A stretch of DNA of 64,000 nt, from NCBI RefSeq assembly GCF_002000055.1, contig NZ_MVBD01000001.1, forward strand, positions 62,001 through 126,000, read 5' to 3'. Numbering within the stretch: position 1 is the stretch's first letter; each line of letters opens with the position of its first letter. Below the pieces are notes generated by a model that saw nothing but the letters and a program-made list of their open reading frames with translations, was not told the origin of the DNA and searched no databases. Below are positions 6,542 to 51,254 of the stretch, piece by piece. The position numbers were made by a program, and so were the translations under genes. Source of the stretch: Marinicella sediminis. GTDB taxonomy: Bacteria; Pseudomonadota; Gammaproteobacteria; Xanthomonadales; Marinicellaceae.

Positions 6542-7441
6542 ATGATGAAAACTTTGTTGACCATGCTTTTACTGTCAGGCCTTTGGGCTGCCAATGCCGC
6601 GGAAGACATTCAACTGATCCCACCTGAGGCTGGCAGTGTGTCAACCAAGCAGGGGTTGCAACATTGGTCACGCATTTATGAAGTGACTTCACATCCCCGC
6701 TGTGCCAATTGTCATGTGGGCGACAGCCCCTATCCCATGTGGTCAGGGCCAAGCTATGGCGAAACCCGCCGGCATGACATGAACATCCACGCTGGGGCCA
6801 GCCGCATTGGCGTGGAATCAATCATGTGCAGTACCTGTCACCGGCAAAGCAACAGCGAGGAAGCCCATGGCGCACCGGGGGCCAATGCCAGCTGGCGACT
6901 GGCACCAGTCGAAGCCGCCTGGTTTGGCCGCAGTTCCAATGACATCTGCCAGCAACTGCGGGATCCGGCCCGCAATGGAGGCCGCACGTTCGAAGAGTTG
7001 GCCGCGCATTTGAACCACGATGAAATCCTGCACTGGGCCTGGACCCCGGGTGGTCAACGCAAGCCCGCGCCTTATTCGTTGCAGGAACACGTCAATGACT
7101 TGTTGAGCTGGGGAGTGGCGGGTATGCCCTGTCCAGCGGATCAGGCCGATGAAATAAGGAATGATCTTGGGACTTCGGCCTCCGATCCGGTCTCGGCTCT
7201 AACTCCTGTATCCCTACCGTCGTCATTCACTTTTGTTGCTGACAAAAGTGAAAGGCCAGGTGATGAAAGGTTGCTGATTTTTGCGCAGCAAAAGAAAGCA
7301 AGAATGCATACCGTAGACCGTGGCCACGGCGATCATGTCATAAATTCAAGCGCACGATCCTCTGATAATACTGCGTTTAACCAACAGGGTCGGCGGGTCG
7401 AGCTGAACATCAGCTCTCCGCTGGAGGTGGCCCATGAGTGA
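6542..7441 (+). CDS. diheme c-type cytochrome of the hydroxylase operon, with repeat-derived C-terminal tail
   Basis: A 299-residue exported protein starting at 6542 (or 6545) after a strong GAGGAGGTG site. It has a signal peptide (residues 1-20) and two heme motifs, CANCH (54-58) and CSTCH (96-100), and looks like the cytochrome subunit paired with IorA/IorB-type enzymes. Homologous content appears to end near residue 203 (GMPCPADQAD). The last 96 or so residues are read from a dispersed repeat (7156-7420) that also occurs at 24.5 kb and 50.4 kb outside genes. The tail keeps the frame open to an 8-base overlap with the next gene. Whether the tail is kept in the mature protein is unknown. Confidence 0.75.
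   Translation: MMKTLLTMLLLSGLWAANAAEDIQLIPPEAGSVSTKQGLQHWSRIYEVTSHPRCANCHVGDSPYPMWSGPSYGETRRHDMNIHAGASRIGVESIMCSTCHRQSNSEEAHGAPGANASWRLAPVEAAWFGRSSNDICQQLRDPARNGGRTFEELAAHLNHDEILHWAWTPGGQRKPAPYSLQEHVNDLLSWGVAGMPCPADQADEIRNDLGTSASDPVSALTPVSLPSSFTFVADKSERPGDERLLIFAQQKKARMHTVDRGHGDHVINSSARSSDNTAFNQQGRRVELNISSPLEVAHE
7156..7420 (+). repeat. dispersed mosaic element, copy A (in-frame inside a gene)
   Basis: Begins at AAGGAATGATC, as copy B does, and shares with it a block containing CCGGTCTCGGCT and AACTCCTGTATCCCTA. It carries a perfect 11-base-pair hairpin (TTCACTTTTGT, loop TGCTG, ACAAAAGTGAA) at 7226-7252, then a middle module with TTTTTGCGCAGCAAAAGAAAGC-like sequence at about 7279-7300, then GGCCACGGCGATCATGTC, and the conserved end (TAACCAACAGGGTCGGCGGG, then CATCAGCTCTCC). 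It is translated as the cytochrome tail. Confidence 0.8.
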
Positions 7442-7775
7442 TGTCAGGATGTTGTATCGCAGTGCAGCCCGCTGGATGTTGTACTGTGCGGCTTTACAAA
7501 TCACCGTATCCTGGGTGGTGGGTTTTCATATATCCACATATCAGATGTTGTTTTTCGGTTTATTGGGGGTGCTCACGGCGCAGGGCTTACACCGGGGTTG
7601 GCGCTGGCTGGCATGGTGCTCGTTGTTTCCAGTGATGATGGTATCGATACTGGCCATGGCCCGGGCTTTTGACGCCACCGGGTTGGGCATTGGCTGGTTC
7701 GCCGGGATCGCTCTGACAGATTGTATTGTGGCGGTGTTTTTATGGCGAATTTTGTGGCGCTCTGTTGAACGCTGA
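7434..7775 (+). CDS. small integral membrane protein of unknown function
   Basis: A 113-residue protein with three to four hydrophobic helices and Arg-rich ends (N-terminal RSAARWM, C-terminal WRSVER). Its ATG overlaps the end of the cytochrome gene by 8 bases, which suggests translational coupling and membership of the hydroxylase operon. It might anchor the cytochrome or link it to the respiratory chain, but no motif supports a specific role. I do not recognise the family. Confidence 0.6.
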   Translation: MSDVRMLYRSAARWMLYCAALQITVSWVVGFHISTYQMLFFGLLGVLTAQGLHRGWRWLAWCSLFPVMMVSILAMARAFDATGLGIGWFAGIALTDCIVAVFLWRILWRSVER

Positions 7776-24472: not shown

Positions 24473-24726
24473 AAGGAATGATCCTGGATCTTTGGCTTTG
24501 ATCCGGTCTCGGCTTTAACTCCTGTATCCCTAAGTCGGCATTCAATTTTGTTCCTGACAAAATTGAATGCGGCCACGGCGATCATGTCCTTCAATCAAGC
24601 GCGAATCCGCACAAGCTTTCTTTTGCACTGCAAAAACCAGCATGTGCTCCATGACTGTTCCGTCCCTCTGATAACACTGAGTATAACCAACCGGGTCGGC
24701 TGGTCGAGCTGATCATCAACTCTCCG
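24473..24726 (+). repeat. dispersed mosaic element, copy B (intergenic)
   Basis: Matches copy A from AAGGAATGATC onwards, including CCGGTCTCGGCT and AACTCCTGTATCCCTA. The hairpin at 24540-24568 is ATTCAATTTTGT, loop TCCTG, ACAAAATTGAAT: a perfect 12-base-pair stem in which the base pair that differs from copy A has changed on both sides. GGCCACGGCGATCATGTC follows directly, then the middle module in the opposite orientation to copy A (GCTTTCTTTTGCACTGC at about 24617), then the conserved end (TAACCAACCGGGTCGGC, CTGATCATCAACTCTCC). Confidence 0.8.
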
Positions 24727-24789: not shown

Positions 24790-24940
24790 GGAGCGTAGAC
24801 TTCAATCCACGACGTGGATAGCTTGTCGGCTGCAGTCATCATCAGTTAAGGGCTTGGTGAGTGGATGAGCTGCTGAACCGAAAGTTTATTTTTCTGATGC
24901 AGATAAAAACAAGCCTTACGCTGACTGAAGTCGGCACTCC
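24790..24940. repeat. REP-like half-sites, locus 2
   Basis: GGAGCGTAGACTTCAATC at 24790-24807 and GACTGAAGTCGGCACTCC at 24923-24940 are the same two half-sites as at 19702-19751, but in the reverse order and about 115 bases apart. CCACGAC follows the GGAGC half-site at both loci. The spacer between them carries no recognisable gene. Confidence 0.55.
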
Positions 24941-36690: not shown

Positions 36691-37359
36691 ATGAAATACG
36701 TTTTAATCTTTTTACTGACCGCTGCAATCACCGTTCAGGCCGGTGTTTTTGGCAGTGAAAAAGTCGCCGCAGGTACCAATTCTCCCGAGAAAGACTTTGA
36801 TTCCGTCAATGGCAGCATCACTGTGGGCGAAAACGCCCATGTCGATAATCTGGACACCGTGAACGGTTCAATCAAAGTGGGCAACAATGCCATTGTAGGC
36901 AAAGTTGAAACTGTCAACGGCAGCATCAAATTTCACAACGGGGTGACGGCTGATCATGCGGAAACCGTTAATGGCTCCATCAAGTTGGGGGAAAACTGTC
37001 TGATCAAGGGCCATGCAGAAACTGTAAATGGTTCTGTCACCGCCGAAGAGGGTTGTCTGGTTGAGGGCAAAATGGAAACGGTGAACGGCAAAATCACAGC
37101 CACAGGTGCTCAGGTTGGCGGTAACATTGAAACCGTTAATGGTAACATCAAACTGGACAATGGAACGGTGGTTGATGGTGATGTGATCATCGAAAAATCA
37201 ACCGGCTGGTTCAACAGTAATAAAAAGGTCCCGGAAGTATATATCGGTGAAGATGTGGTGGTCAAAGGTGACCTGGTGTTCAAAAAGAAAGTTAAATTAT
37301 ACGTTGCAGATTCCGCTCAGGTGGGTGAAATCATTGGTGATGACATCACCGATATGTGA
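36691..37359 (+). CDS. exported beta-solenoid protein with ETVNGSIK repeats
   Basis: A 222-residue protein with a signal peptide (cleavage near VQAGV, residue 17) and about seven repeats of roughly 18-20 residues built on the core xTVNGSIKxxxxxxVxG, from residue 36 to about 150. The spacing and Gly/Asn/Val pattern fit a right-handed beta-helix like DUF4097 or bactofilin-type proteins. It has no transmembrane anchor. A clear terminator follows. The role is unknown; a surface or periplasmic structural part is plausible. It overlaps the 3' end of folK by 14 bases. Confidence 0.7.
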   Translation: MKYVLIFLLTAAITVQAGVFGSEKVAAGTNSPEKDFDSVNGSITVGENAHVDNLDTVNGSIKVGNNAIVGKVETVNGSIKFHNGVTADHAETVNGSIKLGENCLIKGHAETVNGSVTAEEGCLVEGKMETVNGKITATGAQVGGNIETVNGNIKLDNGTVVDGDVIIEKSTGWFNSNKKVPEVYIGEDVVVKGDLVFKKKVKLYVADSAQVGEIIGDDITDM

Positions 37360-50079: not shown

Positions 50080-50558
50080 ATAAGATGATTGTGCAGGGTT
50101 GAAGACACGCAGGCGACCCTTGTTGCCGGGTGCTCTACGACCAAAGCAGTAGATGATAACACAAAAAAACTGAATCAAGACTGACTGTTAACAAGATTGT
50201 AACGTCCGTTTAACCCCATAAAAAGACCGCTGAAATCATTATGTTTTCTTCTTTTGCCGTAAAACTGGTAGAATTCGTGCTTCGAAGAAGGGCTGATGAT
50301 CGGCCCAACCCGCCGACTTGGTTAGGCAGTTCATGCCACCATGGTGGTTTGACACAGTCAATAAGCCTTGGTGAAATGACCCCCAGCCGTGGTTGCTTAC
50401 GCATCCTGCTTTCGTGACTTGTCTGTATCCAGGCAAACGAAAGTGAACCGAAGAGTCGTGCACTTAGATTACATAAAATGATCGCAATGGCGGTTTCACA
50501 TTTGTCAGGAGCAAAAGTGAATACAAGCCTGTGATCGTTCCATTTTTGGTGACTCATC
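50080..50558. other. 479-base divergent gap holding copy C of the mosaic element
   Basis: No gene. It lies between the POT pair (leftward) and the SDR gene (rightward), and contains copy C of the dispersed element at about 50285-50521. The nearest promoter of the SDR gene must lie within or next to this copy. The left part (50080-50260) is AT-rich and is the likely promoter region of the POT genes. Confidence 0.6.
50285..50521 (-). repeat. dispersed mosaic element, copy C (reversed)
   Basis: Read on the minus strand it begins with the hairpin (TTCACTTTTGC, then CTGACAAATGTGAA; 50495-50521, one internal mismatch), continues with CGCCATTGCGATCATTT (the counterpart of GGCCACGGCGATCATGTC), has CGAAAGCAGGATGC in the middle module, and ends with CTAACCAAGTCGGCGGGT and GATCATCAGC. 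The 5' block before the hairpin seen in copies A and B is not recognisable. More diverged than A and B. Confidence 0.65.
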
Positions 50559-51254
50559 ATGGCTAAATATCCTGAATTGGCAAGCAAAACAATTTTTCTG
50601 ACCGGTGCCTGCGGCGGGCTGGGATCAGCGCTGGCTTTGCGCTTATCGCAACAAAATGTCAACCTCATCATCAGTGACAAAAACCCACGTGGTTTGGATA
50701 AGTTGTGTGATGAATTGATCAAAAGGGATTTGCCCGAACCAGTGATCTATCCAATGAACCTGATCGGAGCCACCCCTTCCGATTACATGGATTTGGCCAA
50801 AGTCATTAAAAAACATTTCGGACAACTGGATGGCCTGATTCACACCGCTGCAGAGTTTGGTTCACTGACACCATTCCTGCTGTATGAAGCGTCCCGCTGG
50901 CTGAAGGAGATGCAGGTCAATGTCAATTCGCCGATTTTTCTGACCCAGGCGTTACTGCCGTTGTTATTGAAAAGCAAGGGCACGGTGCTGTTTACCTCAG
51001 ATAACCAGGAAATGCTGGGTAAAGCCTATTGGGGGCAATATGGTGTGGGTAAAGCAGCCATCGAACAATTTGCCCGGATTCTTGGTCAGGAATGTGAAAA
51101 CCAAGGCGTAACGGTTCAGACCATCACACCGCCACCCATGCACACCCAATTGCGCGCCAAAGCCTGGCCGGCTGAAGATGCTGGCCGCCTGGCCAAACCT
51201 TTGGATGTGGCTGACACCTATTTGCGGGCCCTGGCCAATCGGCCTGAAGACTGA
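50559..51254 (+). CDS. short-chain dehydrogenase/reductase, YciK-like
   Basis: A 231-residue SDR. The NAD(P)-binding motif is TGACGGLGSALALRL, the active-site Tyr-x3-Lys is YGVGK, and HTAAEFG marks the N-terminal region. The nearest family in my judgement is YciK of gammaproteobacteria, a predicted oxoacyl-(acyl carrier protein) reductase of unclear substrate. The gene is alone, and its upstream region lies in copy C of the repeat. Confidence 0.8.
   Translation: MAKYPELASKTIFLTGACGGLGSALALRLSQQNVNLIISDKNPRGLDKLCDELIKRDLPEPVIYPMNLIGATPSDYMDLAKVIKKHFGQLDGLIHTAAEFGSLTPFLLYEASRWLKEMQVNVNSPIFLTQALLPLLLKSKGTVLFTSDNQEMLGKAYWGQYGVGKAAIEQFARILGQECENQGVTVQTITPPPMHTQLRAKAWPAEDAGRLAKPLDVADTYLRALANRPED

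Follow-up and report, generated by a model that had tools for sequence, protein, structure and literature searches.

The cytochrome gene and its in-frame insert

The DNA analysed, a stretch of 64,000 nucleotides referred to below as the window, belongs to the Marinicella sediminis genome (assembly of 3.99 Mb in 44 contigs, 98.3% complete). Near its beginning, a gene for a diheme c-type cytochrome runs into the start of a gene for a 113-aa protein, and one copy of a hairpin-rich repeat, copy A, lies within the end of the cytochrome gene; copies B and C lie further along (Table 1). Pfam searches assigned the cytochrome to no family at E ≤ 0.01, and the downstream protein to none. As the first-pass annotation had described, the 298-aa frame passes through copy A and still shares 8 bases with the next gene, and the resulting tail follows both heme motifs, CANCH (residues 53-57) and CSTCH (residues 95-99). 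The annotation had ascribed the stretch 7150-7441, about 96 residues, to the repeat. The in-frame position was right, but that stretch was too long, since the insert covers 88 codons, and LEVAHE, the final six residues, belongs to the native sequence outside it. At its left end, copy A splits a codon after the second base; at its right end, it stops short of the third base of another codon.

Table 1. Coordinates of the cytochrome locus and of the repeat copies in the window.
Feature	Position	Strand	Description	Basis
Diheme c-type cytochrome gene	6545-7441	+	298 aa as found; 210 aa minus the 88 inserted codons; two CxxCH motifs	
Repeat copy A	7156-7419	+	264 nt, AAGG...CTCC; 88 codons, stop-free in phase	Ends from 65 copies, one empty site and the orthologous cytochrome junction
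Extra module of copy A	7177-7224	+	Between left end and inner hairpin; missing from the short form	Side-by-side copies
Inner hairpin TTCACTTTTGT..ACAAAAGTGAA	7225-7253	+	Reads FTFVADKSE; helix 2 of the repeat family	
Second extra module of copy A	7254-7321	+	Own predicted hairpin	Side-by-side copies
GGCCACGGCGATCATGTC	7322-7339	+	Right arm of helix 1 in the short form; reads GHGDHV	
Right-terminal hairpin GAGCTGAacaTCAGCTC	7400-7416	+	Helix 7 of the repeat family	
Native GGAGG	7423-7427	+	Likely Shine-Dalgarno of the downstream gene, 3 nt past the insert	Aligned with M. meishanensis (L080)
Downstream gene	7434-7775	+	113 aa; ATG at 7434; 8-bp overlap with the cytochrome gene (7434-7441), as in relatives	
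Predicted tail peptides of the cytochrome			LLIFAQQK, VELNISSPLEVAHE	
Copy B	24473-24725	+	253 nt, between convergent ORFs	
Copy C (L077)	50365-50541 (C1:112365-112541)	-	Diverged copy between divergently oriented ORFs	

The orthologous cytochromes were expected to end near residue 203, and the same tail in distant species would have spoken for an old domain. All 28 named orthologous loci (55-70% identity) stopped without the tail, 0-12 residues past the end of the tblastn match, and the same short ending was observed at L034 (same place as L080), L035 and L038. The three best named orthologues by E-value were from Marinicella (69-70% identity; genomes G008, G010 and G004), and the other 25 were mostly alphaproteobacterial, chiefly from Rhodobacteraceae. 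In the Marinicella relatives (L080, L078, L079 and L035), 13-14 native residues follow the residues CP, and the gene overlaps the downstream gene by 8 bases, same as in the window. When the window flanks were joined without 7156-7419, the frame ended in ADQADEMLEVAHE and a stop, 13 codons after CP, and aligned gap-free with GDVTTATEEVSDD and the stop of M. meishanensis (L080). The GGAGG six bases ahead of the ATG and the 8-bp overlap at the joined site also aligned with L080, unchanged. At the level of sequence, these alignments demonstrate the insertion, its length, and the preservation of the frame, the stop, the Shine-Dalgarno and the overlap.

Similar peptides had been noted across the hairpin in all three copies, and the readings were correct: FTFVADKSE in A, FNFVPDKIE in B and, on the minus strand, FTFAPDKCE in C, with GHGDHV common to A and B. 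However, B and C lie outside any recognisable gene, and thus their peptide likeness merely mirrors shared DNA. Copy B contains stops in all six frames, and the 171-aa ORF over copy C is antisense across the start of a 232-aa ORF (50559-51254). Elsewhere in the window (36799-37156), five 28-nt direct repeats were observed, mostly 54 nt apart (GAAACCGTTAATGGCTCCATCAAG), suggesting a repeat protein.

A dispersed and folded repeat family

The repeat is dispersed and mosaic, with a core of about 149 nt. A first blastn search gave 135 pieces of it in the own genome. A covariance model built from 11 short copies found it in 16 of the 18 genus genomes, the own genome included (E ≤ 0.1). At E ≤ 0.01, the own genome gave 59 model rows, some of which were doubled for one copy or were opposite-strand shadows. 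The number of rows varied widely within the genus, with 86 in G017, 74 in G015 and only 1-6 in eight genomes. Across the order, matches were obtained in 12 of 121 genomes, ten within the genus and two outside (G041 and G108). Fourteen model rows were observed in G041, from a different family of the order (e.g. C83:8633-8781), and the repeat may therefore have spread between families. The forms in the own genome were a short one near 149 nt, a common one of 262 nt and mosaics such as A and B. The 262-nt form (e.g. L069, L046 and L073) was nearly uniform across many own-genome copies, which looks like a recent burst; by eye, one of its inner modules resembles the reverse complement of a copy A module. 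A plasmid search with a 149-nt composite of the repeat gave no match. Rfam gave no match in the window above the gathering score and one chance-level match in L057 (16.6 vs 70 bits). Among the matches listed in the literature on palindromic, repeat or transposable elements of Marinicella, no printed description of the family was found, and within the literature searched it appears to be undescribed.

The ends and flanks were analysed with the copies having both ends recognisable, namely 33 of 46 from the own genome and 32 of 40 from relatives (L150 represents the L140 locus again and was excluded too). The base before GG was A in 57 of the 65 copies (own 27/33, relatives 30/32), and the fourth base after CTCC was G in 54 (own 29/33, relatives 25/32), with the bases between varying; copy A follows this rule (GCTG). 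At the one clean empty site, the filled G012 and the empty G001 differed by 149 nt, AAGG...CTCC. A single A at this site fits at either end, which leaves room for a 1-bp duplication. The empty site of G001 already holds the G, and the preference at +4 therefore seems to belong to the target. In the own genome, the second base before GG was A in 17 of 33 copies and T in 13. Because of this variable AA, the left end is less certain there, and the 264-nt reading of copy A rests on the cytochrome comparison. At the candidate empty sites L139, L145 and L136, the latter two judged from search rows only, no junction was visible. The hallmarks of classical MITEs were looked for and not seen: a target-site duplication amounted to at most one ambiguous base at the single empty site, flanking 3-mers were equal in at most 5/33 (own) and 5/32 (relatives) copies at the shifts tried, and the two ends, AAGGAATG.. 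and ..CTCTCC, share by eye only GGA when turned, instead of terminal inverted repeats.

Seven helices with 36 base pairs were assessed in an alignment of 34 copies drawn from five genomes; 96.7% of the cells were paired, and cells changed on both sides numbered 148, against 42.5 in shuffles (sd 5.9). When the partner was slid by 1-3 columns, pairing fell to 35-46%. One of five covariation measures, further pair types, was no higher than in shuffles (36 vs 34.8). The structure was derived from the same alignment on which it was tested, which favours it; the slid versions were far lower. From these comparisons of copies, we take the pairing to be probably under selection, be the folded strand RNA or DNA. 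T-G wobble pairs were kept at columns 10-59 and 33-37 of the family alignment (A4), in 32 and 31 of 34 copies, respectively, which may hint at RNA as the folded form or at a protein reading those bases.

The own genome contains one Y1 transposase gene. The genomes richest in copies, G015 and G017, gave no Y1 match at the Pfam level in the draft genomes, and none of the 20 Y1 loci searched, out of 26 matches, had a copy of the repeat beside it within the available flanks. A RAYT mobiliser is thus unsupported by the presence or neighbourhood of Y1 genes. With respect to REP/RAYT or IS200/IS605-derived elements, the repeat has the subterminal hairpins and no long target duplication, and an association with a Y1 transposase was not found, again at the Pfam level and in draft genomes. 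Little or no target duplication, together with compensated hairpins, would suggest, in outline only, a folded single-stranded intermediate and an enzyme acting in trans. Separately, the single Y1/RAYT-like gene (L106, G000:C41, near 1501-1752) is flanked by GGAGCGTYGACTTCAGTCRAC-type hairpins of a separate REP-like family, and a motif like these hairpins lies at 24790-24815 of the window, just past copy B.

Copies relative to genes

A total of 86 copies were screened for ORFs, 46 from the own genome and 40 from G001, G002, G012 and G017; L043, L058, L062, L070 and the first copy in L042 were excluded. Six copies were spanned by an ORF (A, L041, copy C, L135, L140 and L150), and only A had a recognisable gene on both sides. 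The spanning ORF of L041 (128 aa, no Pfam match) and those of copy C and L135 were short and overlapped or adjoined longer ORFs, and at L140 and L150 a GspH-like protein starts after the element (the L150 protein was tested). The latter two are the same 195-nt copy just upstream of a gspH-like gene, at a tight gene junction, in two species (L140:1507-1701 in G001 and L150:1607-1801 in G002).

Read-through inside a recognisable gene was therefore confined to one of the 86 screened copies, copy A. Seven more ORFs, with at least 300 nt ahead of the element, merely end inside a copy (L044, L045, L107, L113, L139, L149 and L152, the last two representing a single locus present in two species). Three of these were searched against Pfam and all three matched, as a GMC oxidoreductase (L152), a sodium/hydrogen exchanger (L045) and a lipase chaperone (L113). 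The GMC oxidoreductase ends in ILNT and a stop at the empty site of G001 (L176) and in ILNGVLLSSTTRRAGW and a stop at the filled sites of G012 (L152) and G002 (L149); here the last codon and stop were swapped for 13 element codons and an element stop, with the element on the other strand.

The length was divisible by three in 11 of the 33 own-genome copies. Across these copies and six frames, 6 of 198 frames were open, and copy A was the only such case in an element longer than 150 nt; of the 21 own-genome copies longer than 200 nt, 20 are closed by stops in every one of the six frames. Among 3000 dinucleotide shuffles of copy A, 81 were open in its phase. As the family has tens of copies, a rare open one such as copy A needs no special adaptation, and it was noticed because it is open. 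Rather than being specialised for coding, the family resides mostly between genes and at times rewrites the ends of genes.

Origin of the tail and known systems

In our interpretation, held with a probability of roughly 0.8, a mobile repeat that is dispersed and rich in hairpins inserted cleanly as copy A and is read in frame to the original cytochrome stop. The repeat would have landed 3 nt ahead of the Shine-Dalgarno, at a place in the operon where neighbouring genes share 8 bp. There is no intergenic space at this junction, so that the insertion point fell within the last codons of the cytochrome gene; copy A, of 264 nt and stop-free in the phase it met, then lets the gene read through to its original stop. 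The ribosome would presumably translate the 88 codons into a tail that follows a finished heme domain, and the lack of conservation of the native C-terminus may explain why this tail is tolerated. Read-through would keep ribosomes arriving at the downstream gene, with termination staying beside the next start. The repeat itself may have moved in trans through the folded single-stranded intermediate outlined above, and the family hits gene ends elsewhere as well, as in the GMC oxidoreductase of two relatives. A wider generalisation, which we hold only as a doubtful conjecture, would be that a transposase-orphan folded element inserts before NNNG with little or no duplication and rewrites gene ends time and again, RNA or single-stranded DNA perhaps serving as its intermediate; where genes overlap, the only survivors would be copies whose length and phase let ribosomes run on to the native stop, so that the open frame of copy A would reflect selection for operon coupling.

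Alternatively, copy A could have been retained because its hairpins, as RNA, adjust the operon at this junction through transcript stability or coupling to the downstream gene, the peptide tail being a by-product. Its position 3 nt ahead of the Shine-Dalgarno, the conserved fold of the family and the finding of no terminator-like site in copy A would all suit such a role, and effects of this kind are reported for ERIC and NEMIS in the portion of the review available (PMC2229807). However, the RNA fold around the junction was not unusual (z -1.59; 20 of 200 shuffles as good), and the covariation could serve mobility alone. The flanking ORFs were co-directional at 38 copies, divergent at 19 and convergent at 16 of the 84 counted (L068 and L116 were excluded from the 86), which suggests no single regulatory use. 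We thus regard this explanation as unlikely.

It is somewhat less probable still that the tail is never produced or is lost, either since a base error in the assembly masks a stop or frameshift or owing to clipping after export. The GC content at third positions, 0.46 in the insert vs 0.63 in the cytochrome gene, would agree with this idea, and it also fits a recent origin of the insert. In the structure model (mean pLDDT 54.6), tail residues 216-278 and 285-298 scored below 50, and scores this low also cover a large part of the heme domain. The model is too poor to show more than that the tail lacks a confident fold over most of its length. On the other hand, the open phase, the length divisible by three and the kept stop are mutually consistent.

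A protein-coding palindrome in the sense of the Rickettsia palindromic elements (RPE), adapted to in-frame life inside genes, had been the analogy drawn by the first-pass annotation. Part of it stood, as the in-frame insertion is seen against orthologues, but a family with many in-frame copies in conserved genes was not found. The phase used by copy A (s1) is indeed stop-poor, with 0-3 stops in 30 of 33 copies and open in 3, while phase s0 has at least three stops in 30 of 33; moreover, copy A is read through over 88 codons, and element letters give the final 13 residues of the GMC oxidoreductase. Nevertheless, in that oxidoreductase the element is read on the opposite strand and also provides the stop, copies occur in all gene orientations, and the single read-through copy and the stops in nearly all long own-genome copies also speak against such adaptation, which we consider highly improbable. 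RPE likewise is a small palindromic repeat found in frame in a conserved gene, but it was reported in 19 protein reading frames in the available part of PMC2229807, as compared with one read-through among the 86 copies here. Finally, an ancient C-terminal domain of the cytochrome can be dismissed, being ruled out by the tailless orthologues and by the presence of the tail DNA at tens of other places.

REP/BIME elements with RAYT share with the present repeat little or no target duplication, and differ in their mobiliser, given the Y1 loci without a copy and the copy-rich genomes without a Y1 match described above. The right end of the repeat, read on the other strand, is GGAG followed by a hairpin, reminiscent of REP tags.

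The annotation had considered a gammaproteobacterial counterpart of RPE inserted in an operon gene to be notable; such a counterpart is not new, and precedents are in print. RU-1 adds a C-terminal tail to an amidase of Erwinia carotovora and sits near the C-terminus of threonine dehydrogenase, as described in the accessible part of PMC2759123. RU-1/ERIC (127 bp) is likewise a small gammaproteobacterial hairpin repeat, some copies of which form an in-frame C-terminal tail (e.g. ECA3499 and ECA0168), and ECA0168 continues for five unrelated residues beyond the repeat peptide, which we liken to copy A (PMC2759123, same part). By description, it is set apart by the terminal inverted repeats and target duplication listed for it in an excerpt of PMC2229807, neither of which was seen in the Marinicella repeat; fusions of RPE, ERIC and NEMIS are reviewed in the same excerpt. 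In Coxiella, QMITE2 lies in frame at the 3' end of enhC as the presumed source of 33 C-terminal residues, and QMITE insertions in functional genes are placed at 3' ends, according to the section of PMC5896051 available. This placement resembles the Marinicella ORFs that stop inside copies. By the description in that section, QMITE2 has direct repeats of 7-11 nt, whereas the Marinicella repeat has none that long, and the stop in enhC directly follows the element, whereas copy A keeps six native codons and the native stop. In-frame fusions of repeats at gene 3' ends are accordingly an event kind already known in gammaproteobacteria.

Among such events, copy A is exceptionally clean as an example of how a mobile repeat can become part of a protein, with a fixed codon count and an intact stop, ribosome-binding site and gene overlap. 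The genus-wide family to which it belongs, with its compensated fold, alters the C-termini of more than one gene, and it opens the questions of how such elements move and which insertions in packed operons survive.
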